From: Melioribacteraceae bacterium
GTDB taxonomy: Bacteria; Bacteroidota; Ignavibacteria; Ignavibacteriales; Melioribacteraceae
DNA: 64,000 nucleotides
NCBI GenBank assembly: GCA_030584085.1
Contig: CP129490.1
Span: 496,001 to 560,000, forward strand
Direction of reading: 5' to 3'
Below the pieces are notes generated by a model. That model was given only the letters and a program-made list of their open reading frames with translations. It had not been told where the DNA came from and made no database searches. Made by a program: the position numbers and the translations under genes. Numbering within the stretch: position 1 is the stretch's first letter; each line of letters opens with the position of its first letter. Positions 1,188 to 33,957 of this stretch are shown here, piece after piece.

Positions 1188-1212
1188 TTTTTAATAAAAT
1201 ATAAGTGAATTT

Positions 1213-4821: not shown

Positions 4822-4853
4822 TTATACAAAATATTTAAGAGAAGACAACTTAA

Positions 4854-4893
4854 CCCCCTTTATTTGCCGCTTCTCTTTGTAAGAGAAGGGGGG
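4854..4893. repeat. Palindromic extragenic element between narG and narH
   Basis: An 8-bp perfect inverted repeat, CTTCTCTT/AAGAGAAG (4870-4877 and 4881-4888), has a 3-base loop and is flanked by a C5 run (4854-4858) and a G6 run (4888-4893), so a longer imperfect hairpin can form. The C-run/palindrome/G-run form resembles short dispersed extragenic repeats common in bacterial genomes. It lies inside the nar operon without a T tract, so it is more likely a repeat or mRNA-stability element than a terminator. It also falls in the stretch where an upstream TTG would wrongly extend narH. Confidence 0.5.
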
Positions 4894-4950
4894 TACAGGG
4901 ATGAGTTTTGTAAATGTAATTATTCAATAATAATAGATAAAATAAAAACT

Positions 4951-7179: not shown

Positions 7180-7185
7180 ACTAAA

Positions 7186-7914
7186 ATGACTCCCTTCAAT
7201 GTAATTTTTTTTATCGCTCTGCCTTATGCCGCTTTGTTGATGTTTTTTGTCGGAACGATTTATAGGTATAAGGCTACGAAGTTTAAATTTTCTTCCTTGT
7301 CGTCTCAATTTTTAGAAACAAGGAAGCTTTACTGGGGTTCGGTTCCGTTTCATTGGGGAATATTATTTTTGGCTTTTGGACACTTAATTGCTTTTCTTTT
7401 CCCAAGTTCAATTTTAGCTTGGAATCAACAACCAATAAGATTGATCATTCTTGAAGTAAGTGCATTTGTCGGCGGTGTAGTTACGTTACTGGGACTGATC
7501 AATTTATTCTATCGACGGATAACAGATGCACGTTTGAGAAAAGTTACAAGTTTAATAGACATTCTTTTAGAAGCATTATTAGTCACCGAAATATTCTTGG
7601 GACTTTGGGTTGCCTTCGGGTTCAGATGGGGATCATCCTGGTTCGCAACTGTTCTTTCGCCTTACTTAAAATCAATTTTCACATTTAGCCCGAACATCGA
7701 TGCAGTTGTTATGCTTCCATTCATCATTCAACTACACATAATTCTCGCATTCGTAATATTTCTAATAATTCCGTTTACCCGGCTTGTACATTTACTCGTC
7801 TATCCGCTTAGTTATTTATGGCGACCTTATCAAAAAGTTATTTGGTATTGGGATAGAAAACAGATCCGAAATCCCCATACGAAATGGAATATACATAAAC
7901 CGAAAAATAATTAG
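7186..7914 (+). CDS. narI: Respiratory nitrate reductase gamma subunit NarI
   Basis: Membrane cytochrome b subunit that oxidises quinol and anchors NarGH. The 242-residue protein has five predicted membrane helices. The histidines His56 and His66 (PFHWGILFLAFGH) fall at the same numbers as the E. coli heme ligands, and His184 and His202 have the same 18-residue spacing as the second ligand pair, so both hemes b are expected. The C-terminal RPYQKVIW segment is also NarI-like. It ends the structural nar block. A 114-base gap with no evident terminator separates it from narK, so narK may be co-transcribed. Confidence 0.96.
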   Translation: MTPFNVIFFIALPYAALLMFFVGTIYRYKATKFKFSSLSSQFLETRKLYWGSVPFHWGILFLAFGHLIAFLFPSSILAWNQQPIRLIILEVSAFVGGVVTLLGLINLFYRRITDARLRKVTSLIDILLEALLVTEIFLGLWVAFGFRWGSSWFATVLSPYLKSIFTFSPNIDAVVMLPFIIQLHIILAFVIFLIIPFTRLVHLLVYPLSYLWRPYQKVIWYWDRKQIRNPHTKWNIHKPKNN

Positions 7915-8028
7915 ACGAAAGAACTATATAAGACAGATATTTCGTTTATACAACTTGATAAGTTAATTACTTGTCGGATTATACCGATAATCGTAACAAA
8001 TGAATAATAATCACGGAATAAGAGAAGT

Positions 8029-9519
8029 ATGGTAGAAAAAGCAACCGGTAAATCATACCAAATATTGTTTATGAATACGTTTGCATTTACAATCTGTTTT
8101 GCGGCGTGGACAATAAACGGTGTTTTGGTAACATTTCTTGTAGATACCGGAACATTTAATTGGAGCAGTGTAGAAGTCGGCTGGCTTCTCGGTATTCCGA
8201 TCCTATCGGGTTCAATTTTCAGATTCCCAATCGGGATGTTAACCGATAAATTCGGCGGAAAAATTGTTTTCAGTACAATATTATTCTTCTGCAGTATACC
8301 TTTGTTTTTATTAGCCTATGCAAACAGCTTTACAATATTTGCTCTGCTTAGTTTTCTTTTTGGGTTAACCGGAGCAAGCTTTGCAAGCGGTATAGCATTT
8401 ACTTCACTTTGGTTTCCAAAGAGCAAGCAGGGAACAGCTCTTGGGATATTTGGAGTGGGTACTGCCGGTACCGCTTTAACTGCGCTTATTGCTCCAAGTC
8501 TTTTAGATTTTCTGACGGATAACGGTGCGCACGTAGAAGGTTGGAGAATTCTACCTCAAATATATGCGACAGTCTTAATTCTGATGGGAATCCTTTTCAT
8601 TTTTTTTACAAAGAACAAGCTGCCCGAAAAAACAAAATCTTTTAAGGAATTATTCCATCCTTTAAAAAATATACGTCTTTGGAGATTCGGCTTATATTAT
8701 TTCCTTGTATTCGGTTGTTTTGTAGCTTTTTCTCAATGGCTGGTACCTTATTATGTAAACGCTTATTATCTTTCCTTAGTTACCGCCGGGTTTTTAACAT
8801 CATTATTCAGTATGCCGGCTGGTTTATTTCGTGCACTCGGCGGATGGCTTGCGGATAAATTCGGCGCAAGAAGAGTTATGTACGGTGTTTTCAGCGCTTC
8901 AATTATTTTGTCGTTTCTTTTAATCTTTCCCAGAATGGAAATTTATTCACCCGGTTACGGGGTAACGGCAAACCAGAGTGGAGAAATAACGGATGTAAAT
9001 GAAAATTATATCGAAATCGAAGGAGAAAGGCTGGAACTGACTCCAAAAGATGCAGAGTCATATCATGAAGATAAAAACATGCTGGTTTTGCCCAGAATTG
9101 AAGCTTGGCACGAACCTGTTGTTTCAACCGGCGAAGAAGTAAAAAGAAAGGAACTAGTAGCAAGAGGAGTAACAAGAATATTTTTCCAGGCAAATGTATG
9201 GATATTTTCGGGATTGGTTTTTCTGATCGGTGTTGCCTGGGGTATCGGGATGGGCGGTGTGTATAAATTTATTCCCGAATATTTTCCTAACGAAGTCGGG
9301 GTAGTCGGCGGTGCAGTAGGTGTTCTCGGCGGTCTTGGCGGATTTTTCTTCCCTATCGTTTTCGGTTATGCATTAAGTTTTACAGGGATATGGACTTCAA
9401 GCTGGTTTTTAATGCTCTTGCTTTCTTTAATATGTTTTGCTTGGTTCCACTCGGTTGTTACAAAAATGCTTAATAGTAAATCACCGGAACTTATCAGCAA
9501 GTTTGAATCAGCGGGTTAA
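8029..9519 (+). CDS. narK: NarK-type nitrate/nitrite transporter with an extra loop domain
   Basis: Major-facilitator nitrate/nitrite transporter of the NNP family (496 residues, ~12 TM). Substrate-site arginines are expected in FRFPIGMLTDKFGG and its repeat counterpart LFRALGGWLADKFGARR. The nitrate-signature glycine-rich segments are FGLTGASFASGIAFTSLWF and GVLGGLGGFFFPIVFG. Unusual is a soluble insertion of about 88 residues (roughly 300-388) in the second half. It is rich in short hydrophobic strands and has a V-x3-G-x2-V...L-x2-G-V pattern reminiscent of lipoyl-like folds. Most NarK proteins have only a short loop there. The context supports nitrate import or nitrite export for the adjacent reductase. 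Confidence 0.9.
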   Translation: MVEKATGKSYQILFMNTFAFTICFAAWTINGVLVTFLVDTGTFNWSSVEVGWLLGIPILSGSIFRFPIGMLTDKFGGKIVFSTILFFCSIPLFLLAYANSFTIFALLSFLFGLTGASFASGIAFTSLWFPKSKQGTALGIFGVGTAGTALTALIAPSLLDFLTDNGAHVEGWRILPQIYATVLILMGILFIFFTKNKLPEKTKSFKELFHPLKNIRLWRFGLYYFLVFGCFVAFSQWLVPYYVNAYYLSLVTAGFLTSLFSMPAGLFRALGGWLADKFGARRVMYGVFSASIILSFLLIFPRMEIYSPGYGVTANQSGEITDVNENYIEIEGERLELTPKDAESYHEDKNMLVLPRIEAWHEPVVSTGEEVKRKELVARGVTRIFFQANVWIFSGLVFLIGVAWGIGMGGVYKFIPEYFPNEVGVVGGAVGVLGGLGGFFFPIVFGYALSFTGIWTSSWFLMLLLSLICFAWFHSVVTKMLNSKSPELISKFESAG

Positions 9520-10796: not shown

Positions 10797-11540
10797 ATGA
10801 ACATAATAATAGAAAATAGAAGTAAAATAAGAGACATTGTAAAAGAATATTATTCAACTTCAAAAGTTTTTAAAAAATACGGTATTGATTTTTATTGTGG
10901 AGGAAATAAAACTCTGGAAGAGGTGTCGATCTTTAATAAAATTTCTCTCGAACAATTGAAAAATGAATTAACCGATCAAATCATTCAAGCAAATCCGGTT
11001 GACAATTCTAATTTTAAGCATTGGTCAACAGGTTTTCTAACAGATTTTATAATCCGTGTCCATCATAATTATATTAAGAGTAATGTAGCTGTAATTACGG
11101 AGCATATTGACAAATCGGTTAAAAAATGCAAAAAGGATTATCAAAGATTTATAACCATTAAAACGTTATTTGAAGAAATAGCTGATGAACTATTAAGTCA
11201 TTTGACCAAAGAAGAAGAAGAATTATTCCCGTATATAAAAGAATTGTCTTTTGCTGTAGAGAATAAACTGGCTCTTAACCGGTTAGAATTCGGTATTATA
11301 AAAAACCCTGTTCGTGTAATGGAATTTGAACATGAAAATACAACTAATATACTTAAACAAATAAGAAAGACGAGTCAAGATTTTTCGATAGATAATTTAG
11401 CTTGCGATGAAGGTAAGAAAGTATACAGAAAGCTAATTGAATTTGAAGAAAATATGCAGCAACATGTTCATCTTGAAAATAATATTTTATTTCCAAAAGT
11501 AATAGAACTTGAAAAAATATTAAATGAGGATTCCAAATGA
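10797..11540 (+). CDS. ric: RIC-type di-iron iron-sulfur cluster repair protein (first copy)
   Basis: Cytoplasmic di-iron protein of the RIC (YtfE/ScdA/DnrN) family that helps repair Fe-S clusters damaged by nitric oxide or oxidants. The 247 residues contain an N-terminal DUF542 domain (KIRDIVKEYYSTSKVFKKYGIDF), then a hemerythrin-like four-helix domain with iron-ligand motifs RVHHNY, HLTKEEEELFPY, EFEHEN and HVHLENNILFP. The N-terminal motif is YCGG rather than the usual CCGG, so one cysteine of the pair is lost here. It heads a + strand cluster divergent from the anion channel and overlaps the next gene by four bases (ATGA). A second copy lies at 18371. Confidence 0.92.
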   Translation: MNIIIENRSKIRDIVKEYYSTSKVFKKYGIDFYCGGNKTLEEVSIFNKISLEQLKNELTDQIIQANPVDNSNFKHWSTGFLTDFIIRVHHNYIKSNVAVITEHIDKSVKKCKKDYQRFITIKTLFEEIADELLSHLTKEEEELFPYIKELSFAVENKLALNRLEFGIIKNPVRVMEFEHENTTNILKQIRKTSQDFSIDNLACDEGKKVYRKLIEFEENMQQHVHLENNILFPKVIELEKILNEDSK

Positions 11541-12184
11541 GTAATATTAATAAAGGTATAAAAGACGACCCGATAAGAAGATTTGTTGAAAAAGATTCCG
11601 GTGAAGAGATGTCGCCATTCGATCCGCCCGATGCTTTTGATCCGCAAAACATTGAACCTGTTCCTTACGAAGAACTTCACCCGTTTCTTAAAAAGCTTGC
11701 GGATGAACACACCGCATTCTCCGACGTTTTGAGCGGATTTGAAGAAGCATTAATCAAATGGCGTGAAAACAATTGGCAGTTTGATGAAGAAATAGACGAA
11801 AAATTTAAAAACTTCTTCGAGTTTATTGATGAGAAAGTTCCGGCGCACAATCAAAAAGAAGAAAAAGATTTATTTCCTCTATTGAACAAAAAACTTATTG
11901 AGATAGGCGAGCACAATTCGAAAGATTCTTCTCTAACCGGAATAAGTATTATGGAAGATGAACATATAAAAGTAGCACAGGCTGCAGCTATTGTTTTTAA
12001 CTTCTTGGGATTGGGTTCTCGTTTTCCGGATCAACGTTCAAAAGAGATAACGTTTGAAGCTGCTTTCGATCAAGCTATTGCAATTATCGAGACTATGAAA
12101 CTGCACATTTTCAGAGAAGAAAATATTCTCTTTTCCCAGGCTATGAAATTGTTTGATAAGAATGAATTCGATGCATTAAAATGA
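11537..12184 (+). CDS. Hemerythrin-like HHE domain protein
   Basis: Soluble 215-residue protein with hemerythrin-type iron-ligand motifs: LADEHTAF, PAHNQKEEKDLFP, MEDEHIKVA and HIFREENILF. These predict an O2- or NO-reactive di-iron centre. An N-terminal stretch of about 45 residues rich in Pro and Asp (SPFDPPDAFDPQN) precedes the bundle and may be unstructured. It overlaps the preceding RIC gene by four bases, so the two are probably translationally coupled and act in the same NO or oxygen response. The following Rrf2 regulator starts 19 bases later. The exact reaction is not known for this subgroup. Confidence 0.85.
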   Translation: MSNINKGIKDDPIRRFVEKDSGEEMSPFDPPDAFDPQNIEPVPYEELHPFLKKLADEHTAFSDVLSGFEEALIKWRENNWQFDEEIDEKFKNFFEFIDEKVPAHNQKEEKDLFPLLNKKLIEIGEHNSKDSSLTGISIMEDEHIKVAQAAAIVFNFLGLGSRFPDQRSKEITFEAAFDQAIAIIETMKLHIFREENILFSQAMKLFDKNEFDALK

Positions 12185-12203
12185 ATTTGAAGGAAGGTTA
12201 ACT

Positions 12204-12620
12204 ATGTTTTTTCAGAAAAATATTACATACGGTATAAAAGCGGTACTTTATCTCTCTAGATTTGACGATAATGAAATTCGTTCCTCGAAGGATATTTCCC
12301 ATGCCTTACATATTCCAAAAGAATTCACTTCAAAAGTGCTCCAATCACTAACTAAAAGCGGAATTATCTATTCTCAGAGAGGGAAAGGAGGCGGGTTTCG
12401 TTTAGCAAGAGATCCTGCGAATATAAGAATCATTGATGTGATTTTTGAACTTAACAAAGCAGCGGACTTAAAATTGTGCCTTTTCGGTTTTAAGGAATGT
12501 AAATTTGGGGGAAAATGCCCAATGCATGACTCGTTGGATAAAGTTAGAGATGAATTTTGCGATATTATACATAATCATAGCGTCAAAGAGTTACTCACTT
12601 CAGGTTGGTTTAGGTTTTAG
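12204..12620 (+). CDS. Rrf2-family Fe-S transcriptional regulator, NsrR/IscR-like
   Basis: DNA-binding repressor of the Rrf2 family (138 residues). A winged helix covers about residues 1-65, with a recognition region at PKEFTSKVLQSLTKSGII and wing RGKGGGFRLARDP. It is followed by three cysteines, C-x6-C-x5-C (CLFGFKECKFGGKC), the Fe-S cluster ligands in NsrR and IscR. NsrR senses nitric oxide through this cluster, and the location directly behind RIC and hemerythrin genes fits an NO sensor that controls them. Assignment to NsrR rather than IscR or another Rrf2 type is by context. It has a good AGGAAGG ribosome site. The 163-base gap after it separates the Crp/Fnr gene. Confidence 0.87.
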   Translation: MFFQKNITYGIKAVLYLSRFDDNEIRSSKDISHALHIPKEFTSKVLQSLTKSGIIYSQRGKGGGFRLARDPANIRIIDVIFELNKAADLKLCLFGFKECKFGGKCPMHDSLDKVRDEFCDIIHNHSVKELLTSGWFRF

Positions 12621-12783: not shown

Positions 12784-13476
12784 ATGGAAAAAATAGATCA
12801 AAAATCGACATTAAAATCTATCCCGGTTTTTTCGGAACTTTCTATTGAACAGTTAAGAGAAATTTCTGAAATAGGTTCAATTCATAAATATTCAAAGGGC
12901 GAAAATTTATTCAGAGCCGGAGATTATTACCGCGGCTTTTATATTCTGCTTAAAGGAATAGTAAAAGTCTACGACCTAAACAAAGAAGGCAAAGAAACAG
13001 TGATTCATATTATTAAGCCTGTCAATGTATTCGCGGATATCCCTTTGTTTGAAGGTAAAAATTACCCGGTTAGCGCAGATGCAATTGAAGATAGTATTGC
13101 TTTATTTATACCGAAAGAAGAATTTATTAATCTTATAATGAACAATCCGGAAATATCCCTTAAAATGTTGGCGGGATTTGCAAAACGTATGAAGTCGTTA
13201 GTCAAACAAATTGAAGACCTTTCATCAAAAGAAGTAATTAACAGGCTGGCAAAATATATAATAAAAGAAGTGAAAAAAAGCGGAACAGAAAACCTGCCCG
13301 AACCTTTCATAAAATTAGCTGCTCCTAAGTCTGTAATAGCCTCTTACATAGGTACAATAACCGAAACATTTTCAAGAACTTTAAATAAACTTCAAAGTGA
13401 AAAAATTATACGGGTACAGGGCAAAAAAATATTTATTAATAATTTATCCGAGCTAAAAAAACTTGCTGACAATTAG
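12784..13476 (+). CDS. Crp/Fnr-family regulator without cysteines (Dnr/NnrR type)
   Basis: Transcription factor of 230 residues: an N-terminal cyclic-nucleotide-type beta barrel (about 10-125), a dimerisation helix (about 130-150) and a C-terminal winged helix (155-225). The recognition helix reads TETFSRTL, with the Glu-x2-Ser-Arg arrangement that in Fnr contacts TTGAT-like half-sites. The protein has no cysteine at all, so it cannot carry the oxygen-sensing 4Fe-4S cluster of Fnr. It better fits the Dnr/NnrR branch that responds to NO. The first CTGACTTAAGTCAA operator lies 32 bases after its stop codon, upstream of the DUF2249 operon. I infer it binds all three copies of that operator. Confidence 0.88.
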   Translation: MEKIDQKSTLKSIPVFSELSIEQLREISEIGSIHKYSKGENLFRAGDYYRGFYILLKGIVKVYDLNKEGKETVIHIIKPVNVFADIPLFEGKNYPVSADAIEDSIALFIPKEEFINLIMNNPEISLKMLAGFAKRMKSLVKQIEDLSSKEVINRLAKYIIKEVKKSGTENLPEPFIKLAAPKSVIASYIGTITETFSRTLNKLQSEKIIRVQGKKIFINNLSELKKLADN

Positions 13477-13507: not shown

Positions 13508-13521
13508 CTGACTTAAGTCAA
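13508..13521. promoter_or_regulatory. Fnr/Dnr-type operator 1, before the DUF2249 operon
   Basis: CTGACTTAAGTCAA is a near-perfect 14-bp palindrome; only the outermost C/A pair breaks symmetry. It resembles TTGAT-N4-ATCAA Fnr-family sites with T to C changes. The identical 14-mer occurs at 23299 and 32914. Its centre (13514.5) lies 29.5 bp before a TATATT -10-like element, the geometry of class II activation (-41.5). Confidence 0.85.
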
Positions 13522-13592: not shown

Positions 13593-13826
13593 ATGCCAAA
13601 TCAACTTGATATTCGTTCGGTTCAACCAAGAGAAAAACACCCGACAATCTTCAAAACCTTTGATGAATTAAATGCAGGCGAAACATTTCAATTAATTAAC
13701 GATCACGACCCGATGCCGCTTTATTACCAGTTTCAAGCGGAAAGACCGGAGCAGTTCGGATGGGAATATGTTGAACAAGGTCCCGAAGTATGGCGGGTTA
13801 ATATTTCAAAAAAGGGGTTAACGTAA
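13593..13826 (+). CDS. DUF2249 single-domain protein
   Basis: Small soluble protein of 77 residues that is essentially one DUF2249 domain: LDIRSVQPREKHPTIFKTFDEL followed by the signature HDPMPLYYQF and a C-terminal WEYVEQGPEVWRVNI. The DUF2249 fold resembles SirA/TusA-like small domains, and its members often sit in NO-response or denitrification loci; the biochemical role is not established. It is the first gene of the operon behind operator 1, has a strong GGAGG ribosome site and ends 12 bases before a larger DUF1858-DUF2249 protein carrying the same domain twice. Confidence 0.85.
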   Translation: MPNQLDIRSVQPREKHPTIFKTFDELNAGETFQLINDHDPMPLYYQFQAERPEQFGWEYVEQGPEVWRVNISKKGLT

Positions 13827-13838
13827 GGGTGAATTATA

Positions 13839-14657
13839 ATGATTACCAAAGAAATGAGGGTATCTCACGTCTTACAACAGTATCCCGATACTCTCGAAAT
13901 ATTTATTAAAGCGAGTCCGCACTTTTCGAAATTAAAAAATAAAATTTTACGGAAAGCTTTAGCGGGGCGGGTTACCGTGGAACAAGCCGCTAAAATTGGC
14001 GGCGTTGACTTGTATAACTTTTTGTTTGAATTAAATAAGGCTATTAACCAATTACCGGATAATTTTGAAAAGATGATGAACAGACCTAAACAAGAAGAAG
14101 AGTTGGGAACGAATAAACCTGAATTCTTGATAAACGCTGAAAGAGGGAAAATAAAAGAACTTGATGTAAGACCTATTATCGATGAAGGAAAAGACCCGCT
14201 CTCGACAATAATGAACTTTGTAAAAAATATTGCCGATGACGAAATATTTCTGTTAATCAATTCATTCGAACCTCTACCGTTATACACTGTTCTCGGGAAC
14301 AAAGGATTTGAACATTTTACCGAAAAGGTGGATAACACATTCAAAGTTTACTTTTATAAAACCGGTAAAGAGCATGGTATAAAAGAAGATAAAGCAAATC
14401 AAATCGATGATACGTTCGCAATTAATTTATCGGGTTACGAAAACGTGATTGAAATAAATGTAAGAGAGCTTCCTCCACCGGAACCAATGATGAAAGTGTT
14501 TGAAACATTACCGCGGGTAGATGAAAATACTCTTTTGCTTGTACATCATCACCGCGAACCGTTGATGCTTTATCCCAAACTTGAAGAACGAGGATACCGG
14601 GCGCAGTCAAATAAAATTGAAGAAAATTATTACAAGGTATTTATTGTAAAGAAATGA
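13839..14657 (+). CDS. DUF1858-DUF2249-DUF2249 fusion protein
   Basis: Soluble 272-residue protein in three parts. Residues about 1-70 look like a DUF1858 helical domain (TKEMRVSHVLQQYPDTLEIF, then EQAAKIGGVDLYNFL). Residues about 105-185 form one DUF2249 unit (KELDVRPI...NSFEPLPLYTVL). Residues about 200-272 form another (EINVRELPPPEPMMKVFETL...HHREPLMLYPKL). DUF1858 occurs with hemerythrin/RIC-type and NO-response proteins. With the preceding single-domain protein, three DUF2249 units are made from adjacent genes. The role is unknown; a sulfur- or metal-handling helper for the following membrane proteins is only a guess from context. Confidence 0.8.
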   Translation: MITKEMRVSHVLQQYPDTLEIFIKASPHFSKLKNKILRKALAGRVTVEQAAKIGGVDLYNFLFELNKAINQLPDNFEKMMNRPKQEEELGTNKPEFLINAERGKIKELDVRPIIDEGKDPLSTIMNFVKNIADDEIFLLINSFEPLPLYTVLGNKGFEHFTEKVDNTFKVYFYKTGKEHGIKEDKANQIDDTFAINLSGYENVIEINVRELPPPEPMMKVFETLPRVDENTLLLVHHHREPLMLYPKLEERGYRAQSNKIEENYYKVFIVKK

Positions 14658-14660
14658 GAA

Positions 14661-15926
14661 ATGATTAACACAAATTCCATAGCGTCTTCGTATTCGCCCC
14701 CTATTAAAATAGTAATAAAATATATGGGAACCGCGGTTCTTGCTTTTGTGCTTCTTACATTTTTACAACTTCTGGAATACGAAACCATAACCGGTCATCA
14801 TTTTCAACCTAAAATACTTGCACTTACACACATTGCTACCCTGGGCTGGATAACAATGATAATTTTCGGCGCACTGTTTCAGCTTGTACCGGTTGTACTC
14901 GAGGTTAAACTATTCAGCGAAGTTCTTGCCGAAATTCAGTATTGGATTTATTTAATCGGTGCTGCCGGACTAGTATATGGTTTTTGGGTTTTCGATAGTA
15001 AGAATTTTATAATGCCCTCGGCAATTGTTCTTAATGCTGCTATGTTAATCTTTGCGTTCAATATGATAATGACATTTATAAGAGTTAAGAAATGGAATAT
15101 TACAGGCTACTATCTTGCGGCTGCCGTGTTCTATCTTATCGTTACTGCCGTAGCCGGCTTGCTTTTAAGTATAAACCTTTATACGCCGTATATAAAAATT
15201 AATCACTTGCAATACTTGAATTTACACGCTCACATTGCGTTTGTAGGCTGGGTTTCCTTTGTAGTTATGGGAGTTACATATAAATTAATTCCTATGTTTA
15301 CGCTTTCTCATAAATATTCTACCAAATCTGCTTTAGGGGCTTTTGTTTTAATTAACACAGGACTGCTCGGAATTTCGACGGCTATGCATTACGAAAATAC
15401 TACGATCTTCTTTTACTTCTTTGTAATCTTAATTGCTGTAGGAATATTTTTATTTCTTTACCAGGTTTACATGATTTTTAAGAACAGGGTAAGAAGAAAA
15501 CTCGATGTGGGGCTCGAGCTTTCTGTCGCGGCATTTATTTTTTTCGGTATCAGTACTTTAACCGGACTTATCACTGGGGTTGGAAATTTAAGTGATGTAA
15601 GAAACCTAAGTTTAATCTACGGGTACCTAATTGTGTTCGGTTACTTGTCGATGTTAATAATCGGGCAGCTTCATAAAATATTGCCTTTTCTAAGATGGTA
15701 TCATAAGTACAGCAGCAAAGCTGGTAAGGAAAATGTACCTATGCTGAAAGATATGTACAGCGAAAAAGTAGGTTATTCAATACTTTATCTTATGCTTTCC
15801 GGTATGGCGGTGTTAACTATTTCATTTATACTCGATATTCAAATCGGGGTATTAATTGCATTTATATTGTTTTTCACCGCTTCAATTCTGTTTATGATTA
15901 ATATGATAACGGTACTTAGAAGATAG
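14661..15926 (+). CDS. 12-TM heme-copper oxidase subunit I/NnrS-like protein with threefold repeat
   Basis: Integral membrane protein of 421 residues with 12 predicted helices. A motif HIATLGW...FGALFQLVP (TM2) recurs as HAHIAFVGW...MGVTYKLIP (TM6) and YLIVFGYLS...IGQLHKILP (TM10), that is one motif per four helices. This threefold arrangement is how subunit I of heme-copper oxidases and NnrS-type proteins are built, and the TM histidines could bind heme. I cannot recognise the complete set of heme plus copper or iron ligands of a true oxidase or NO reductase, so catalysis is not claimed. It sits inside the operon controlled by operator 1, so a role in NO or nitrite metabolism is likely. Confidence 0.7.
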   Translation: MINTNSIASSYSPPIKIVIKYMGTAVLAFVLLTFLQLLEYETITGHHFQPKILALTHIATLGWITMIIFGALFQLVPVVLEVKLFSEVLAEIQYWIYLIGAAGLVYGFWVFDSKNFIMPSAIVLNAAMLIFAFNMIMTFIRVKKWNITGYYLAAAVFYLIVTAVAGLLLSINLYTPYIKINHLQYLNLHAHIAFVGWVSFVVMGVTYKLIPMFTLSHKYSTKSALGAFVLINTGLLGISTAMHYENTTIFFYFFVILIAVGIFLFLYQVYMIFKNRVRRKLDVGLELSVAAFIFFGISTLTGLITGVGNLSDVRNLSLIYGYLIVFGYLSMLIIGQLHKILPFLRWYHKYSSKAGKENVPMLKDMYSEKVGYSILYLMLSGMAVLTISFILDIQIGVLIAFILFFTASILFMINMITVLRR

Positions 15927-15938
15927 AAAGGAAAAAAG

Positions 15939-16235
15939 ATGGTTACCGAAGAACTAGTTCGTCAAAAACTAAAAAGCGTAATCGATCCCGAAGTTGGTTT
16001 TAATATTGTTGATATGGGTCTAGTTTACGGTATAGATATAAAAGATAAAAAAGTAATTATAACAATGACACTAACAACACCGGGCTGCCCAATGCACGAC
16101 AGCATTACGGAATGGGCGGAAAGAGTTGTAAAACAACTCGACCCGGTAATGGATGTTAAAATCAATCTTGTTTGGGAACCGCAATGGACGCCCGATATGA
16201 TGAGTAATGAAATTAAAGAATTGTTAGGATACTAA
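15939..16235 (+). CDS. MIP18/DUF59-family metal-sulfur cluster assembly protein
   Basis: Soluble 98-residue protein spanning one MIP18 (DUF59) domain: VIDPEVGFNIVDMGLVYGI followed by the characteristic LTTPGCPMHDSITEW with its conserved cysteine, and ending with an INLVWEPQWTPDMMS segment. Relatives (SufT, PaaD, MIP18) help place Fe-S clusters into target proteins. It has a GGAAAA ribosome site and ends one base before the next start codon. In this operon it may service the neighbouring ferredoxin or repair Fe-S proteins alongside RIC. The family call is firm; the client protein is inferred. Confidence 0.9.
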   Translation: MVTEELVRQKLKSVIDPEVGFNIVDMGLVYGIDIKDKKVIITMTLTTPGCPMHDSITEWAERVVKQLDPVMDVKINLVWEPQWTPDMMSNEIKELLGY

Positions 16236-16236
16236 A

Positions 16237-16692
16237 ATGTTTACCACAGTAAGATATTTTGTAAAAACCAGCATAATATTTTTAATCCTCGGAATATCAA
16301 CCGGATTATATATGTCGTTTGCAAAAAATGTTTTTGAAACTGGTTATAGTTATGATTTGGTATCGGCGCATACTCACGTAATCTTAGTTGGTTCGGTAAT
16401 GATGATGATTATGGGCGTTGCATTATGGTTTTTCCCCCGTGCTGAAAAGAAAGACAAGAGATACAATCCCGATTTAATTTTAATTGTGTACTGGATGATG
16501 ACAACGGCAACTGCGCTAAGATTTATTTCGCAAGCAGCATTGTCGTTTTATTTTGTTCGGTGGCTCAATGTTATTGTAACGATTGCCTCCACTTTACAAG
16601 TGATTGCTATGACGCTCTTCTTTTATTCGATGTGGGGAAGAATAAGACCTGTCGGCAGCCAGTATAGAGAAGCGAAAGGAGAAAAATTTTAA
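16237..16692 (+). CDS. 4-TM single-repeat oxidase subunit I-like membrane protein
   Basis: Membrane protein of 151 residues with four predicted helices. Its second helix has AHTHVILVGSVMMMIMGVALWFFP, the same His-x-His...G...MG...P motif found in each four-helix unit of the 421-residue protein two genes upstream. It therefore looks like a one-unit relative of that three-unit protein. The first and third helices (RYFVKTSIIFLILGISTGLY, LILIVYWMMTTATALRF) resemble NorB or cbb3 subunit I pieces. The stop codon overlaps the ferredoxin start at 16692. Heme binding by the two histidines is possible but not shown. Confidence 0.7.
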   Translation: MFTTVRYFVKTSIIFLILGISTGLYMSFAKNVFETGYSYDLVSAHTHVILVGSVMMMIMGVALWFFPRAEKKDKRYNPDLILIVYWMMTTATALRFISQAALSFYFVRWLNVIVTIASTLQVIAMTLFFYSMWGRIRPVGSQYREAKGEKF

Positions 16693-16919
16693 TGATGCTT
16701 ATAACCGATGATTGTATAAATTGCACCGCCTGTGCGGTCGAATGCCCGCGTGATGCGGTATTGGAACCCGGCAAAGAGCGAGATGTAAACGGCATTATAT
16801 TTCCGTCTTTATCGGAGGATCATTATTTTATAGTTACGGAAATTTGTGATGAATGTTCACAGTTGAACGAAATAAAATGTGTCGCAGTTTGTCCAATGAA
16901 TGCAATTGAAGTCAATTAA
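16692..16919 (+). CDS. 2[4Fe-4S] ferredoxin
   Basis: Small soluble electron carrier of 75 residues with eight cysteines for two clusters: CINCTACAVECP at the N terminus and CDECSQLNEIKC-x3-CP in the second half. The long spacer inside the second motif is the YfhL-like type. The ATGATG start overlaps the preceding stop. It is located between the 4-TM protein and an NDH-2-like flavoprotein, so it could pass electrons between flavoenzymes and the membrane components. A ferredoxin of the same layout is encoded at 32476. Confidence 0.92.
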   Translation: MMLITDDCINCTACAVECPRDAVLEPGKERDVNGIIFPSLSEDHYFIVTEICDECSQLNEIKCVAVCPMNAIEVN

Positions 16920-16936
16920 AATCTACCGAGGTTGGA

Positions 16937-18328
16937 ATGAATTCAATTAAAGATGAAACACTTGCCGAATTCTTAGATGATTTCATGCATATTGAATACA
17001 GGGGAAAGGACCATATAATTGCGCGTCAGCATTATCGTGAAGTGTTTAATGACCTTATACCTAGATATTTTGAGAATAATAATGAAGTACAGGAACCACT
17101 CCAATCAAAACAATCTGAATCAACAGGGAACGGGAACATTGTAATAATTGGCGCAGGCTACGGCGGTTTAACAGCAGCTTTACGCTTAGAAAAATACCTT
17201 AGAAAAGATTGCAGATATAAAATTCATTTAATAGACAAGAATCCCTATCACACAATAAAAACACAGCTTCATGAAGCGGCTGTTCGCAAAGAAGAGGTCT
17301 CAATTCCATTAGACCGAATTTTACGAAAGAAAAACATTTCGTTTCACATCGGTACTGTAATCAATATTGATATTAAGCATAAACAAATAGAAATGGATTC
17401 GAAGTTTATCGGCTATGATTTTTTGGTTATAGCAATCGGTAGTAAGGTTAATTATTATGATATCCCCGGAATGGAAGAGCATTCCTTACCGTTACAAACT
17501 TTGCAAGATGCAGATAAAATTTATAACCATATCTCAAAAATATGTGCCCAAACAGCTTCCGAAAATGATTCGATGATTAGAAAGAATAAATTACGTTTTG
17601 TAATCGGCGGCGGCGGACTTTCGGGTGTTGAGTTTGCCGGAGAGCTTGCCGATCATACTTCGGCTTGCATTAAAAATTATAATGTAAGAAATGATGAATT
17701 GGAAATAATAATAATCGAGGCTGCTGATAGACTTGTTCCTTTTATGGAGCCGGGATATTCTCAAAAAATTAAAGAGAAACTAATAAATAAGGGGGTACGG
17801 GTTTTAACTAAAACCAAAATTGCACGACGCACAAAAGATGAAATTGTGCTTGCCGATGGAAAAGAAATTAAAACAAAAAACTTTATTTGGACAGGCGGCA
17901 TTCGTGTTTCGGAACTTTTGAAAAACGGCGGGTTAGAAACCGACCAAACAGGTAAAGTAATTGTCGATGAACATCTGCATGCAAAAAGTGATAATAATAT
18001 CTATGTAATAGGTGATAGTGCAAACGCAATAAATCCTTACACCGGCAAAACGGTTCCTGCCGCTGCACAATTTGCGCTGCAGCAGGGTAGGGTGGTTGCA
18101 ATAAATATTTTTAGCGAAACAACAGGTAGGCAGAAAAAGAAATATTACCCAAAAGTAACAGGCGAGGTAGTTAGTTTAGGTAAACATTTAGCAATTGGGT
18201 GGATGGCTCTCCCCCTAATCAAAAAAGTAACCTTTGTGGGTTTTCTCGGAAGACTTCTCAAAGCAGCTATTAAAGAGAAACATATTTTTCTGCTCAGAAA
18301 AGAAAGCAGAAATTGGATTACATACTAA
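16937..18328 (+). CDS. NDH-2-like NAD(P)H dehydrogenase with N-terminal extension
   Basis: Flavoprotein of 463 residues in the type II NADH dehydrogenase/sulfide-quinone reductase superfamily. The FAD motif VIIGAGYGGLTAALRL lies near residue 68, the NAD(P) motif FVIGGGGLSGVEFAGEL near 220, and the second FAD motif IYVIGDSAN near 355 with a downstream AAQFALQQG. The C terminus is amphipathic and may attach to the membrane. A polar extension of about 66 residues before the FAD motif is absent from ordinary NDH-2 and rich in charged and aromatic residues. In this operon it could feed NADH electrons to the quinone pool or to the oxidase-like proteins. Sulfide-quinone reductase is less likely because the expected cysteine pair is not evident. 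Confidence 0.85.
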   Translation: MNSIKDETLAEFLDDFMHIEYRGKDHIIARQHYREVFNDLIPRYFENNNEVQEPLQSKQSESTGNGNIVIIGAGYGGLTAALRLEKYLRKDCRYKIHLIDKNPYHTIKTQLHEAAVRKEEVSIPLDRILRKKNISFHIGTVINIDIKHKQIEMDSKFIGYDFLVIAIGSKVNYYDIPGMEEHSLPLQTLQDADKIYNHISKICAQTASENDSMIRKNKLRFVIGGGGLSGVEFAGELADHTSACIKNYNVRNDELEIIIIEAADRLVPFMEPGYSQKIKEKLINKGVRVLTKTKIARRTKDEIVLADGKEIKTKNFIWTGGIRVSELLKNGGLETDQTGKVIVDEHLHAKSDNNIYVIGDSANAINPYTGKTVPAAAQFALQQGRVVAINIFSETTGRQKKKYYPKVTGEVVSLGKHLAIGWMALPLIKKVTFVGFLGRLLKAAIKEKHIFLLRKESRNWITY

Positions 18329-18370
18329 ACTAATTTATAAAAATCATATTAATAAATTTAAGGAGCATCA

Positions 18371-19093
18371 GTGAACGAATTATTGAAAAAAACAGTTGGA
18401 GAAATTGTTACGGAAGATTACCGGACAGCGGAGATATTTAAATCGCATAAAATTGATTTTTGCTGCAACGGCGGAAAAATTTTTAACGAAGTACTATCAG
18501 TAAAAAATTTAGATGCGGATAAAATTATTTCGGAGCTAAATTCCGTAAAACAAAACAACAATAATGGATCTGTAGATTTTGATTCCTGGGAACTTGATTT
18601 ACTTGCAGATTATATTGAGAAAAAACATCATCGATATGTAGAAGTAAAAACACCGGAATTAAAACAATATCTTGCAAAACTCTGTAAGGTACATGGTGAA
18701 AATCATCCGGAGCTTTTTGAAATAAATGAACACTTTAATAAGTCTGCCGGCGAACTGGCAATGCACATGAAAAAGGAAGAATTAATTTTGTTCCCTTATG
18801 TTAGAAAAATGGCTGCCGCAAAACAAAATAATGAAAAGATAGATTTACCCCAATTCGGAACAGTCGAAAACCCAATTCAAGCTATGATGCATGAACATGA
18901 TAACGAGGGAGAACGATTTAGACAAATAGCAGAGATATCAAATAATTACACACCGCCCGCAGATGGATGTAATACTTATCGCGTTACGTTTGCATTGCTG
19001 AAGGAGTTCCAAGATGACCTGCATCTGCATATTCATTTAGAAAATAACATTCTATTTCCGAAAGCTATTGAATATGAAAAAATGATGAAGTAA
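18371..19093 (+). CDS. ric: RIC-type di-iron iron-sulfur cluster repair protein (second copy)
   Basis: Second RIC/YtfE-family protein, 240 residues. It starts at a GTG with a clear AAGGAG site eight bases upstream. The DUF542 N domain (VGEIVTEDYRTAEIFKSHKIDFCC) retains the cysteine pair, as CCNGG, unlike the copy at 10797. The hemerythrin-like domain has EKKHHRYV, HMKKEELILFPY, MHEHDNEGE and HIHLENNILFP as iron ligands. It lies within the operator-1 operon 42 bases after the NDH-2-like gene, so this copy is probably induced by NO. The two copies may be controlled by different sensors, Rrf2 versus Crp/Fnr. Confidence 0.92.
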   Translation: MNELLKKTVGEIVTEDYRTAEIFKSHKIDFCCNGGKIFNEVLSVKNLDADKIISELNSVKQNNNNGSVDFDSWELDLLADYIEKKHHRYVEVKTPELKQYLAKLCKVHGENHPELFEINEHFNKSAGELAMHMKKEELILFPYVRKMAAAKQNNEKIDLPQFGTVENPIQAMMHEHDNEGERFRQIAEISNNYTPPADGCNTYRVTFALLKEFQDDLHLHIHLENNILFPKAIEYEKMMK

Positions 19094-19154
19094 AGAATTG
19101 CCGATTGGGTTTTAAACAAAACAATATCTTTTGAATATAATTAAGGAGATGGGT

Positions 19155-19826
19155 ATGAGTGATTTTAAATTGAAAATACTCAGTGTCCAAAATGATACTC
19201 ATGATGTAAAAGTGTTGAAGTTAGAAAAACCAAATGGGTATAAATTTACACCTGGGCAGGCGGCTGATGTTGCAGTAAACAAACCCAACTTCACCAATCA
19301 AAAACGTTCATTTACATTTACAGGATTAAATGATTGGGATTATCTGGAGTTTACTATAAAAATATATAACAATCATAAGGGCGTTACAAAAGAAATAGGA
19401 CAACTAAAATCGGGTGACGAACTTATTATAAGCGAGTCTTGGGGAGCAATAGAATACAAGGGCGAAGGAACTTTTATTGCAGGCGGTGCCGGTATTACGC
19501 CCTTTATTGCAATTTTACGAAAGCTGGAAGCTGAGAATAAAATTGGCAGCAATAGATTAATATTTGCAAACAAAACATCGGATGATATAATTCACAAAGA
19601 TGAATTCAGCAGAATGCTGGGTAAAAATTTCATAAATATTTTGTCGGATGAAAATGCCGAAGGTTATGCCGAGGGCTTTATAACCGAAGAGTTTCTAAAA
19701 TCATCGGTAAAAGATTTTGATAAAAAGTTTTATCTATGCGGACCTCCGCCAATGATGGAAGCTTTAGAAAAGCAACTAGCAAATCTTAAGGTTGATAAAG
19801 ATGCGATTATTAAGGAACAATTTTAG
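19155..19826 (+). CDS. FAD/NAD(P)H oxidoreductase, ferredoxin/flavodoxin reductase family
   Basis: Soluble flavoenzyme of 223 residues. FAD-binding motifs are FTPGQAADVAV and RSFTFTG; the NAD(P) side has AGGAGITPFIAIL and the C-terminal YLCGPPPMMEAL. No [2Fe-2S] ferredoxin domain or globin domain is attached, so it is a stand-alone reductase like a ferredoxin-NADP reductase or the reductase part of flavohemoglobin. The frame is open back to TTG 19131, but ATG 19155 has an AAGGAG site six bases upstream and is preferred. As part of the NO-response operon it may reduce the ferredoxin or the di-iron proteins. Confidence 0.85.
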   Translation: MSDFKLKILSVQNDTHDVKVLKLEKPNGYKFTPGQAADVAVNKPNFTNQKRSFTFTGLNDWDYLEFTIKIYNNHKGVTKEIGQLKSGDELIISESWGAIEYKGEGTFIAGGAGITPFIAILRKLEAENKIGSNRLIFANKTSDDIIHKDEFSRMLGKNFINILSDENAEGYAEGFITEEFLKSSVKDFDKKFYLCGPPPMMEALEKQLANLKVDKDAIIKEQF

Positions 19827-19909
19827 TTGATCATCTGAAAGCTGCCTGCGAATAAAACATACGGTAAATTATTTATAAGTGTTATCTAAGAAAAAATTAA
19901 AAAGAATTT

Positions 19910-20245
19910 ATGATGAAAACGGAAAACCTATATCCTTCAACAAGCAAAAAACTGAATGATGAAAAAGCATCTTTGTCACCAAATATTATTAGTACATGGC
20001 GCAATTTCAGTAAAACTGTTTTTGAAGAAGGGGCGCTCGATATAAAAACAAAACAGCTTATAGCGGTTGCATCTGCTCATATTACACAGTGTCCTTATTG
20101 TATAAGAGCGCACACAAAGCAGGCAATGCAGAGCGGAGCCAGCAAAGAAGAAATTATGGAAGCAATTTGGATTGCTGCAGAAATGCGCGCAGGTGCAGCC
20201 TATGCACACGCAGGCATTGCTATGGATGAAATGGACAAATCCTAA
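19910..20245 (+). CDS. AhpD-like carboxymuconolactone decarboxylase family protein
   Basis: Small all-helical protein of 111 residues from the AhpD/CMD superfamily. The active-site motif CPYCIRAHTKQAM gives Cys-x2-Cys-x3-His, as in peroxidatic AhpD proteins. The downstream segment ASKEEIMEAIWIAAEMRAGAAYAHA is also conserved. It probably reduces peroxides or takes part in thiol-disulfide exchange. It is 83 bases after the flavin reductase and may be the last gene of the NO-response operon. The tandem ATGATG leaves a one-codon ambiguity in the start. Confidence 0.87.
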   Translation: MMKTENLYPSTSKKLNDEKASLSPNIISTWRNFSKTVFEEGALDIKTKQLIAVASAHITQCPYCIRAHTKQAMQSGASKEEIMEAIWIAAEMRAGAAYAHAGIAMDEMDKS

Positions 20246-21195: not shown

Positions 21196-21281
21196 TTTTC
21201 TGACCCAATAAAATAGTTTGTAACCGTATGAATGAAAATTACTCTAAGAAGATGAAGGAATGTTTGAAAGATGAGTTAAGA

Positions 21282-23249
21282 ATGAAAAGCATAATAAATA
21301 CTATCTTTATAGTACTCACAATATATTTAACCAATTTTACTACCATATTTGCTCAGCCAGTAGATAAAACTAAAGTTAGGTCACTAATTAGCCTTCTCGA
21401 TTACATCGGTACGGACTATCCCAATGCAATTTCGGATGGCAAAATTATCAATGAAATGGAATACGAGGAGATGAAGGAATTTGGGGAAGAGATTGAAAAA
21501 TTATTTAGTGTTGTTGCTTCCCAATTAGTATTTGAAAGTGAGAATAAGATTGAGAAATCCATCCTCATGTTAAGTCGATCAATTAATAACAAAATTAATG
21601 CTAATGAATTAGCGCGCATTTCCACATCTATTAAAAAAGCGATTTTAAAATTGAATTTGATATCTGTAACCCCAAAACACTGGCCGGATATTATAAACGG
21701 GGAAAATCTTTTTGATGAAAATTGCGCTTCGTGTCATGGTTCAGAAGGAGTGAAAGAGACTGCGGTAATAAAAAATCTAAATCCCGCTCCAGCCGATATG
21801 CTGGATCATTCACTTATGAGAAAAATAGCACCTCTGCAAATTTATAACACAGTCCGATTAGGCGTAAGCGGAACAGCAATGCCCCCATTCGATAATTTAA
21901 CAGATGAACAAATTTGGGATGTTGCTTTTTACGTAAGTGCGCTTCGCTATCTAAATGATTACGAAAATTCAACAGAGTTAGTACAGGTAATTAATTCTGC
22001 TTCTACAAAGGTTTCGTTTGAAGAACTTGCACTCTACAGCGATGAAGGACTTTTATCTGAGAAGCTTATTGATAAAAACGATAATTACAAAAATACAATT
22101 GCATCCTTACGCTTGCACAAGCCGGAACATCAAAAGAAAGTAACAATTGAAATCGCAGCAAAAATGTTGGAGAGTGCACGCAAGCAATATGAAAAAGGCA
22201 GTATAGAAATAGCAGAAGAAAGGGCACTCGCTGCATATCTAGAAGGTATAGAGCCGTTTGAGTCGCAGCTTCAAAGCATAGACCCCAATTTGAAGAATGA
22301 AATCGAATCAGCCATGTTTCGTATTAGATCGGAAATAAGTGGCGGGATAGAAGTAAAAAAATTGAATGCTTCAGTTGCCGAGACAGTGAATCTAATTAAC
22401 AAAGCAAGTCACTTGTTAACCGAACAAAAATTCACATTTTGGGTATCATTTGCACTAGCCGCTTCAATAATATTGCGCGAGGGAATAGAAGCCTTTCTAA
22501 TTATAATTACAATACTAAGTGTGCTTAAATCCGTAGGTGCAGGCTGGGCGGAAAAATTTGTTCATGCAGGATGGATATCTGCGCTATTTATCGGAATAGT
22601 AAGCATGTTTTTTGTCAATCTGATAATCTCATTCGGTGCGCAAAATAGAGAATTAATGGAAGGATTTGGTTCTCTCTTTCCTGTTTTAATTCTTCTTTAC
22701 GTTGGATTTTGGCTTCACAGTAAAACCGAAGCAAAACGGTGGAAAGACTTTGTTGAAAACAAAATAGTTAGATTAGTACGCGGTAAAAATTTGATCGGGC
22801 TGGCTGTGCTTTCGTTTGTTGTTGTATTCCGCGAGGCTTTTGAATCTGTTATTTTCTTATCAACAATAAATTTAGAATCAAGTGAAGGTGGAATGAACGG
22901 CAGCTATTTTGGTGCGGGTATTTCTTTGTTAGTTGTTTTGACCATTTCATGGGCTGCCGTAAAGTTTGCGGTAAAACTACCCATAGCTAAGCTTTTCAAA
23001 TATTCAGCTTTTACTTTAGCTGTACTATCTATTATCATAATGGGGAAAGCAATTCACTCCTTACAAGAGGGAGGATATATTGGAGTGACTCAAATTACCG
23101 ATCACTTAAAACTTAGCTTTATCGGATTTTATCCCACGGTAGAAACAACTTTTTCACAAATTGCTTTATTAATTTTAACAATTATTCTTTGGAAATACGC
23201 GGGCAGAATCCCTGTAAAAAGGCGAGTAGTTAATAAATATAAAAAATGA
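21282..23249 (+). CDS. Cytochrome c-FTR1 iron permease fusion
   Basis: Membrane protein of about 655 residues joining an exported cytochrome c domain to an FTR1/EfeU-type iron permease. After a signal peptide (MKSIINTIFIVLTIYLTN) comes a heme site ENCASCH near residue 148-152, with the sixth-ligand methionine region GTAMPPFDNL downstream. A helical linker of about 170 residues follows, then seven membrane helices carrying both iron-channel motifs, REGIE (near 399) and REAFE (near 516). FTR1 permeases import ferric iron coupled to ferrous oxidation; the fused cytochrome could accept those electrons. The frame is open to an ATG at 21228, but the signal peptide begins at ATG 21282. Neither start has a strong ribosome site. 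Confidence 0.88.
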   Translation: MKSIINTIFIVLTIYLTNFTTIFAQPVDKTKVRSLISLLDYIGTDYPNAISDGKIINEMEYEEMKEFGEEIEKLFSVVASQLVFESENKIEKSILMLSRSINNKINANELARISTSIKKAILKLNLISVTPKHWPDIINGENLFDENCASCHGSEGVKETAVIKNLNPAPADMLDHSLMRKIAPLQIYNTVRLGVSGTAMPPFDNLTDEQIWDVAFYVSALRYLNDYENSTELVQVINSASTKVSFEELALYSDEGLLSEKLIDKNDNYKNTIASLRLHKPEHQKKVTIEIAAKMLESARKQYEKGSIEIAEERALAAYLEGIEPFESQLQSIDPNLKNEIESAMFRIRSEISGGIEVKKLNASVAETVNLINKASHLLTEQKFTFWVSFALAASIILREGIEAFLIIITILSVLKSVGAGWAEKFVHAGWISALFIGIVSMFFVNLIISFGAQNRELMEGFGSLFPVLILLYVGFWLHSKTEAKRWKDFVENKIVRLVRGKNLIGLAVLSFVVVFREAFESVIFLSTINLESSEGGMNGSYFGAGISLLVVLTISWAAVKFAVKLPIAKLFKYSAFTLAVLSIIIMGKAIHSLQEGGYIGVTQITDHLKLSFIGFYPTVETTFSQIALLILTIILWKYAGRIPVKRRVVNKYKK

Positions 23250-23298: not shown

Positions 23299-23312
23299 CT
23301 GACTTAAGTCAA
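23299..23312. promoter_or_regulatory. Fnr/Dnr-type operator 2, before the 23410 gene
   Basis: An identical copy of CTGACTTAAGTCAA, centred at 23305.5, in the 160-base gap after the cytochrome-FTR1 gene. The flanks AA on the left and G on the right are shared with operator 3. A TATTTTTA element begins 29.5 bp downstream of the centre, as at the other two sites. Confidence 0.85.
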
Positions 23313-23409: not shown

Positions 23410-23895
23410 ATGTATGAATTTTACATAATTATAAGAACAATACATCAGTTAGCCGGAGCACTCTGGTTGGGCGAAGTTTTAGTTCTCAATTTTATACTTT
23501 TACCTGTTCTTTCAAAATACGAAGGGGATTTAAGAAAACGGGTAATCACTTCAATATTCCCCAGAGTCTTTAAGCTTGCTTCAATCTTATCTGCGACTGT
23601 AGTTATTACAGGCTTGTACATGGTTTTTTATCTTACAAAAGGGAACCTTGAAGTTTTACTGGATGGTAGATGGGGGTTATCAATTCTAATTGGCGGTTCT
23701 CTTGGAATTTTGTTGACTATATTTCATTTCTTCTTGGAAAATAAACTAGCAAAAAAAATCATGCTTGGTAAGCAGGGAGAGAATGAGAAATTAGCAGAAG
23801 TGCATCTGAAAATGAAAATTGTTCCAAGAATAGGGTTAACTATATTAATTATAATCTTCCTTTTGATGATCAATGCGGTTCATGGAATTATTTAA
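23410..23895 (+). CDS. 4-TM membrane protein, CopD/DUF2269-like, behind operator 2
   Basis: Membrane protein of 161 residues with four predicted helices. The first carries RTIHQLAGALWLGEVLVLNF, the His...Gly-x2-x-Trp pattern of CopD/DUF2269-like proteins in which helix histidines may bind heme or copper. Further histidines sit in TM3 (TIFHFF), the loop (AEVHLKMK) and the C terminus (AVHGII). An AGAAGGA ribosome site is present. It is monocistronic: preceded by operator 2 and followed by a convergent gene. Being under the same operator as the RIC operon suggests a function in NO or low-oxygen physiology; the exact role is unknown. Confidence 0.72.
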   Translation: MYEFYIIIRTIHQLAGALWLGEVLVLNFILLPVLSKYEGDLRKRVITSIFPRVFKLASILSATVVITGLYMVFYLTKGNLEVLLDGRWGLSILIGGSLGILLTIFHFFLENKLAKKIMLGKQGENEKLAEVHLKMKIVPRIGLTILIIIFLLMINAVHGII

Positions 23896-32913: not shown

Positions 32914-32927
32914 CTGACTTAAGTCAA
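32914..32927. promoter_or_regulatory. Fnr/Dnr-type operator 3, before the DUF6448 operon
   Basis: The third identical CTGACTTAAGTCAA, centred at 32920.5, in the gap after the ferredoxin. TAGATTTG (32950-32957), a perfect TAnnTTTG element, begins 29.5 bp from its centre. It marks the 32986-34347 genes as part of the same predicted regulon. Confidence 0.87.
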
Positions 32928-33591: not shown

Positions 33592-33609
33592 AAATTTACA
33601 GGTAGAAAA

Positions 33610-33948: not shown

Positions 33949-33957
33949 TCTGAAATT

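Follow-up and report, generated by a model that had tools for sequence, protein, structure and literature searches.

A conserved core of DrpB, a 12-helix oxidase homologue and MIP18 in a candidate nitric oxide- and nitrite-responsive operon of a Melioribacteraceae bacterium

The stretch of DNA analysed here, which we call the window, comprises 64,000 nucleotides of a Melioribacteraceae bacterium (contig CP129490.1, positions 496,001 to 560,000), whose genome is a single contig of 3.74 Mb. At positions 13593-20245 the window harbors a row of ten open reading frames, all on the + strand, that begins with homologues of the Thermus genes drpA and drpB, and this row is the putative operon under study. 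The genes are listed below together with the regulator and the predicted operator that precede them; the domain labels come from Pfam and NCBIfam searches of the operon proteins.

12784..13476, + strand: CRP/FNR-family regulator (Pfam) with no cysteine, directly upstream of drpA in most relatives within the order
13508..13521, + strand: CTGACTTAAGTCAA palindrome, predicted HcpR-type CRP/FNR operator, centre 78 bp before the drpA start
13593..13826, + strand: drpA, single DUF2249 domain (PF10006, 5e-33), 77 amino acids, 63% identity with Thermus DrpA
13839..14657, + strand: drpB, DUF1858-DUF2249-DUF2249, 272 amino acids, the architecture of Thermus DrpB, 38% identity
14661..15926, + strand: homologue of heme-copper oxidases with 12 transmembrane (TM) helices, COX1 fold (3e-12), invariant H57 (helix 2) and H189 (helix 6)
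15939..16235, + strand: MIP18/DUF59 iron-sulfur (Fe-S) assembly helper (PF01883, MIP18/FeS_assembly_P, 8e-20)
16237..16692, + strand: 4-TM single-unit oxidase homologue, COX1-like (6e-9), with an HxH motif (H45, H47)
16692..16919, + strand: 2x[4Fe-4S] ferredoxin (domain search), overlapping the preceding 4-TM gene
16937..18328, + strand: NDH-2-like flavoprotein with an N-terminal extension; its closest solved relatives are bona fide NDH-2
18371..19093, + strand: RIC/YtfE di-iron protein, second RIC of the window (TIGR03652, 240.7 bits against a cut-off of 204.7; ScdA_N plus hemerythrin)
19131..19826, + strand: FNR-type flavin/NAD reductase (domain search), TTG start, peripheral member
19910..20245, + strand: CMD/AhpD-like protein (domain search), peripheral member

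The gaps between these genes are 12, 3, 12, 1, -1, 17, 42, 37 and 83 bp, so that the first seven are spaced by at most 17 bp and the last two, FNR and CMD, are more loosely attached. An original prediction, made from the letters alone, had described this row as a nitric oxide (NO)/nitrite-response operon with split oxidase-like membrane proteins. Its ten reading frames lie where it placed them and on the same strand, and its gene labels, including three DUF2249 domains (one in the 13593 protein and two in the 13839 protein), agree with Pfam and NCBIfam in all cases but NnrS. A sequence search of the PDB with the DUF2249 and 12-TM proteins gave no match.

The most constant part of this arrangement is the succession of drpB, the 12-TM gene and the MIP18 gene, hereafter the kernel. 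In a set of 80 loci from a genome collection, most of them from Bacteroidota, Chlorobiota and Ignavibacteria, with others from Methylomirabilota, Deltaproteobacteria and another Proteobacteria contig, the 12-TM gene has drpB as its immediate upstream neighbour in 80/80 and, where there is room for it, the MIP18 gene as its immediate downstream neighbour in 75/75, and these counts measure persistence rather than 80 independent events, because the loci are the best-scoring ones, are mutually related and were drawn from one peptide pattern. Scattered homologues or freely changing neighbours, which would speak against the functional unit that had been proposed, were looked for, and the core shows neither: in each locus that could be tested, the 12-TM gene stands between those for DrpB and MIP18. 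A sample of 296 genomes from the phylum contains 18 with the 12-TM protein; DUF2249 accompanies it in all 18 of these, compared with 25/278 of the genomes devoid of it (p=2e-17), and NosZ in 17/18 compared with 82/278 (p=4e-8). Genes for NirK, qNOR, NosZ, RIC, hemerythrin and NsrR-type Rrf2 proteins are frequent neighbours, which together with the fixed core adjacency upholds the tie to NO and nitrite, and in three loci (L037, L049 and L051) the kernel is embedded in nos genes and comes right behind one of nosF type. Looser versions of it occur in Thermus, Sinorhizobium, Paracoccus, Aliarcobacter and haloarchaea. With little change, the kernel recurs in bacteria from several phyla that respire nitrate and nitrous oxide.

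The AlphaFold model of the 12-TM protein has twelve helices (pLDDT 92.6, pTM 0.92), and the solved structures closest to it are CcoN (E 1e-8, TM-score up to 0.80), other oxidases and cNOR (TM-score 0.68). It shares its fold with CcoN of cbb3 oxidases and NorB of cNOR, but the ligands of the binuclear centre and most of those of the hemes are absent. NorB and catalytic oxidases carry six histidine ligands on helices 2, 6, 7 and 10, of which only those of helices 2 and 6 (H57 and H189, invariant in 59 sequences) are kept here, the helix-7 and helix-10 ligands being absent. As judged from these residues, the protein cannot hold the usual binuclear centre, and H57 and H189 could possibly carry one heme or metal at most. 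Since the binuclear-centre ligands are missing and only two histidines are invariant, the 12-TM protein alone would not be a NO reductase, and direct NO reduction by it is unlikely. The earlier label "oxidase subunit I/NnrS-like" holds for the oxidase fold, given the COX1 match and the model, and fails for NnrS: PF05940 is absent at E<=1 and hhalign gives a probability of 0.2% against one NnrS sequence. NnrS is likewise a 12-TM heme-copper-oxidase relative found in denitrification neighbourhoods, but it is encoded by a separate gene in the same Sinorhizobium cluster as the 12-TM homologue.

The 16237 protein, which had been claimed to be a 4-TM single-unit relative of the oxidases, is borne out as such by its COX1-like domain match and by an AlphaFold model with four TM helices (pLDDT 80.7). 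Its HxH motif is invariant in the aligned members, those of Thermus included, and aligns with the helix-10 region of NorB, a weak match (E 0.003); the fold search gave similarly weak matches to cNOR and qNOR, the best with E 0.14 and none at E<=0.001. Relatives 59-75% identical to the 16237 protein occur solely within the order, where the gene follows MIP18 in most members that bear the kernel and otherwise ends nirK-NirV-Sco-RIC operons or adjoins qNOR. Weaker relatives elsewhere in the phylum lie near nirK, nosZ, RIC or DUF2249 genes, and in a search of plasmid proteins no match reached E<=1e-5, plasmids having more remote relatives alone, for example that of Thermus. Most kernels have no 4-TM partner. 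A count of 23 for the 4-TM family in the kernel loci was set aside, since its seed may also match the 12-TM gene. The ferredoxin gene behind the 4-TM gene is kept in related genera, and ferredoxin and NDH-2 are additions restricted to close relatives; the outer genes NDH-2, FNR and CMD vary among relatives.

The closest studied counterpart of this locus is found on Thermus plasmids, where the cluster runs in the order nar-drpA-drpB-4TM-protoglobin-12TM-MIP18. There, narCGHJIK is followed by drpA and drpB and then by the 4-TM, 12-TM and MIP18 genes (PMC6282519, PMC7694296), and here drpA and drpB (drpA at 13593) likewise stand just downstream of the nar operon. The proteins also agree in size and architecture (a single DUF2249 of ~72-101 amino acids and a DUF1858-DUF2249-DUF2249 protein of ~273 in Thermus, against 77 and 272 here). 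In Thermus, by contrast, the 12-TM gene is preceded by one for a protoglobin, the cluster contains no RIC, and DnrS and DnrT serve as regulators. A ferredoxin and an NDH-2-like enzyme (NrcD and NrcN) are described in the same island (PMC7694296), and the ferredoxin/NDH-2 pair of the present operon is reminiscent of them, but in Thermus Nrc is a separate operon with a membrane protein, NrcE, and an Fe-S protein, NrcF. The 16937 protein has 25% identity with the NAR1 NAD(P)/FAD oxidoreductase that fits NrcN, and by domain search none of the ten genes encodes a counterpart of NrcE or NrcF, so that they do not make up an Nrc complex (NrcDEFN). The passages of PMC6282519 and PMC7694296 on drpAB treat it as a two-gene operon and do not discuss the genes downstream. 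Thermus thermophilus NAR1 is the strain of the published drp work (PMC6282519), and in this strain the 4-TM gene, located between drpB and protoglobin, is disrupted by a transposase gene (L162:17721-18566); the distance from the DrpB start to the 12-TM start is 3188 bp in NAR1, compared with 2256 or 2264 bp in 13 other comparable Thermus plasmids among those listed. DrpA and DrpB have been filed as nitrate sensors on work in one strain, and because its next gene of the cluster is interrupted, the sensor conclusion merits a re-test in a strain with an intact cluster.

Pei et al. (2014) are said to have defined HCOH proteins, comprising three-unit 12-TM families with two conserved histidines and single-unit 4-TM proteins that resemble helices 9-12, and reportedly described 4-TM and 12-TM relatives with a DUF2249 context and a link to denitrification. 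The two invariant histidines of the 12-TM protein, the HxH of the 4-TM unit and the DUF2249 and denitrification context all resemble HCOH proteins as so described; the constant gene order DrpB-12TM-MIP18, the operator of HcpR type and the association of the 4-TM gene with NirK and qNOR are measured here and may go beyond that account. DrpA/DrpB, HcpR, RIC and, reportedly, the oxidase-homology proteins (Pei et al. 2014) are therefore known parts; new, as far as the literature was searched, are the fixed kernel, its Ignavibacteria-type extension, the three-site regulon and the NAR1 insertion. The statement that no named system has this composition was too strong, because DrpA and DrpB have been named and studied in Thermus (PMC6282519) and oxidase relatives in a DUF2249 context had already been reported. 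PMC11218638 cites Pei et al. 2014 for the DUF2249 link.

The palindrome before drpA occurs in three exact copies in the genome, against 0.08 expected, all of them within a 20-kb stretch of the window. The second and third copies are:

23299..23312, + strand: second palindrome copy, before the CopD-like gene 23410-23895
32914..32927, + strand: third palindrome copy, before DUF6448-cupin-DGC (32986-34347)

The same CTGACTTAAGTCAA (with Y/R ends) precedes drpA here and in 11 related loci, 12 in total, and in further related loci it precedes DUF6448 or the 4-TM gene. It fits the published HcpR consensus, wyTTGACnnnnGTCAArw (PMC1274295). Enrichment is a property of the exact 14-mer alone, as the looser pattern YTGACNNNNGTCAR gives 8 sites in the genome against 7 for a control. 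A CRP/FNR-family protein and a TTGACnnnnGTCAA operator, the two elements that mark an HcpR regulon, are thus both present in the sequence, and the 12784 protein is likely a HcpR/DNR-like regulator of the operon; having no cysteine, it would carry no FNR-type Fe-S cluster. Extended HcpR regulons include nar, nrfHA, ndh, ferredoxin and hemerythrin genes (PMC1274295). The likeness lies in the regulator and its TTGAC-N4-GTCAA operator, the difference in the hcp gene, which was not found by searches of this genome. A different dyad, CAGA-N7-TTCTG, precedes narC, nrfH and DUF6448-nirK, and a second regulon may therefore comprise nar, nir and nrf, possibly under the control of the Rrf2/NsrR-type protein.

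The genome around the operon is that of a nitrate and nitrite respirer, and Ignavibacteria, Ignavibacterium and Melioribacter are its closest named matches in the contig collection. The nar operon (narCGHJI with a NarK-type transporter, at 363-9519) lies upstream of the drpA operon, and between the two are SLAC1, RIC, hemerythrin, Rrf2 and Crp genes; the NsrR-like Rrf2 protein has three spaced cysteines. Elsewhere the genome encodes NrfHA and a NirK-cytochrome c fusion followed by a NirV-like protein, Sco, a third RIC (L131) and another hemerythrin, and an aa3-type enzyme is the only full heme-copper oxidase found. Searches for NosZ and Hcp found none, and a candidate NirS was rejected as a partial match (26.8 bits over 93 of 368 positions). 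NorB, already said to be missing from the window, was not found by searches of the whole genome either. Since NirK is present and the NorB searches are empty, the genome is predicted to make NO with no canonical respiratory NO reductase among the searches made, which did not include flavodiiron NO reductase. This combination, with no Hcp match, turns the bacterium's survival of its own NO into a directly testable question.

The explanation that we favour, at about even confidence, is that the operon is a NO/nitrite-responsive module for the protection, repair or maturation of the metal enzymes of N-oxide respiration. The proposed mechanism starts with the HcpR-type regulator, which would switch the operon on at CTGACTTAAGTCAA, as the site suggests. 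The kernel would then probably act at the inner face of the membrane, where the 12-TM protein, with at most one heme or metal at H57/H189, may bind NO or handle metal or electrons; Fe-S clusters would be delivered to enzymes such as NarGH, or restored in them, by MIP18 and the DUF2249 proteins. In the weakest step, electrons from NADH could be provided by what this lineage adds to the kernel: the 4-TM HxH protein, ferredoxin, NDH-2 and RIC. We prefer this proposal to a pure sensor or reductase because NO exposure during N-oxide respiration and the Fe-S helper are the steadiest thread. Counted in its favour are the invariance of the kernel, its co-occurrence with DUF2249 and NosZ, the RIC, hemerythrin and NsrR neighbours, the nos context of the kernel, the nirK/qNOR context of the 4-TM gene, the shared palindrome, NirK without NorB or Hcp matches, and the inactive NarG of the Thermus mutant. 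Several points weigh against it. The activity of the kernel members and the heme at H57/H189 are predicted; the periplasmic location reported for Thermus DrpA does not fit a purely cytoplasmic repair, and the alteration of transcription by the Thermus drp genes is not explained by a pure repair role (PMC6282519). Ferredoxin and NDH-2, moreover, are confined to close relatives, and the electron-chain part is for this reason not a general feature: the NAD(P)H-to-membrane chain of the original prediction keeps circumstantial backing from the two genes in the operon, both of them lineage-restricted additions. What gives the kernel its interest is that it follows N-oxide respiration across several phyla in almost fixed gene order, with a predicted function.

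A possible but doubtful alternative is that the operon is a module for sensing nitrate, nitrite or NO, in which DrpA and DrpB would sense and signal, as has been proposed for Thermus, the 12-TM protein would be their membrane receptor, and MIP18 and the rest would be co-regulated targets. The fixed two-histidine site of the 12-TM protein would suit a receptor, Haloferax mediterranei induces DUF2249 genes when it denitrifies (PMC11218638), and in Thermus the nar and dnr promoters become independent of nitrate when DrpA/DrpB are missing (PMC6282519). However, the drpAB double mutant makes NarG and retains ~1/10 of the nitrate reductase activity, which its authors read as a maturation defect (PMC6282519), and an Fe-S helper in every kernel would be odd for a sensor. 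DrpB also has no DNA-binding or phosphorelay domain, and CRP/FNR and NsrR-like regulators are already next door in this genome.

The inactive NarG of that mutant (PMC6282519) could also be explained by a metal or heme insertion factor for N-oxide reductases (NarGHI, NirK, NosZ) with no NO chemistry, to which the kernel among nos genes, the MIP18 within it and the 4-TM gene behind nirK-NirV-Sco would conform. We consider it unlikely: the targets would differ by genome (Nar, NirK or NosZ), the common factor being NO exposure, and the neighbouring RIC, hemerythrin and NsrR genes are indicative of nitrosative stress.

It is decidedly unlikely that the operon encodes a cryptic split NO reductase replacing NorB, in which a trimer of the 4-TM HxH protein, or the 4-TM and 12-TM proteins together, would form a NOR-like site fed by ferredoxin and NDH-2. 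NirK with no NorB found, the fold matches to cNOR and qNOR, the strictly conserved HxH and the 4-TM genes that adjoin nirK and qNOR would all be in keeping with it, but the 12-TM protein has no helix-7 and helix-10 ligands, the 4-TM fold search has no match at E<=0.001, and most kernels do without a 4-TM gene. In sister loci, furthermore, the kernel and qNOR stand side by side, and the NrfA family, present here, can also consume NO. In a bolder version, which is highly improbable, three copies of the 4-TM protein, or this protein and the 12-TM one, would assemble by themselves into a minimal heme site that is fed by ferredoxin/NDH-2 and removes NO; if true, a nitrate/nitrite respirer with no recognisable NO reductase would possess an extant single-unit relative of the oxidase/NOR fold. 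The single-unit 4-TM protein bears on the origin of this three-fold architecture. A chance or loose row of genes with no common function, for which the variable outer genes NDH-2, FNR and CMD might speak, is scarcely credible given the 80/80 and 75/75 adjacency, the phylogenetic co-occurrence, the near-zero spacing and the shared operator; adjacency and co-occurrence refute it for the kernel, so that its remaining scope is FNR and CMD.

Some further observations concern the surroundings of the operon and its relatives. G031, the one sampled genome of the same genus, has no match for DUF2249, the 12-TM protein, the 4-TM protein or NosZ, and therefore the operon is not fixed in the genus. In Sinorhizobium meliloti LMB1 the MIP18 gene appears frameshifted (L029:10776-11006). 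The product of 23410-23895, behind the second palindrome, is a CopD/DUF4149-like membrane protein, and a CopD-like protein (L105) is found near drpA/drpB in L075, L078, L089 and L105. In this genome or related ones, DUF6448 genes are also found ahead of nirK (L131), the 4-TM gene and qNOR. A CAGAATAAAAATTCTG dyad lies at window positions 280-295, before narC, and at 10797-12620 there is a row of a second RIC, a hemerythrin protein and the NsrR-like Rrf2 regulator. Downstream of the operon, at 21228-23249, an FTR1-type iron permease is fused to a cytochrome c domain. Finally, a multi-TM, histidine-rich family of ~430 amino acids with no Pfam match (L040:6756-7952 and relatives) is encoded close to the kernel or to relatives of the 4-TM protein in at least 18 loci, and it looks like a further oxidase-homology family.

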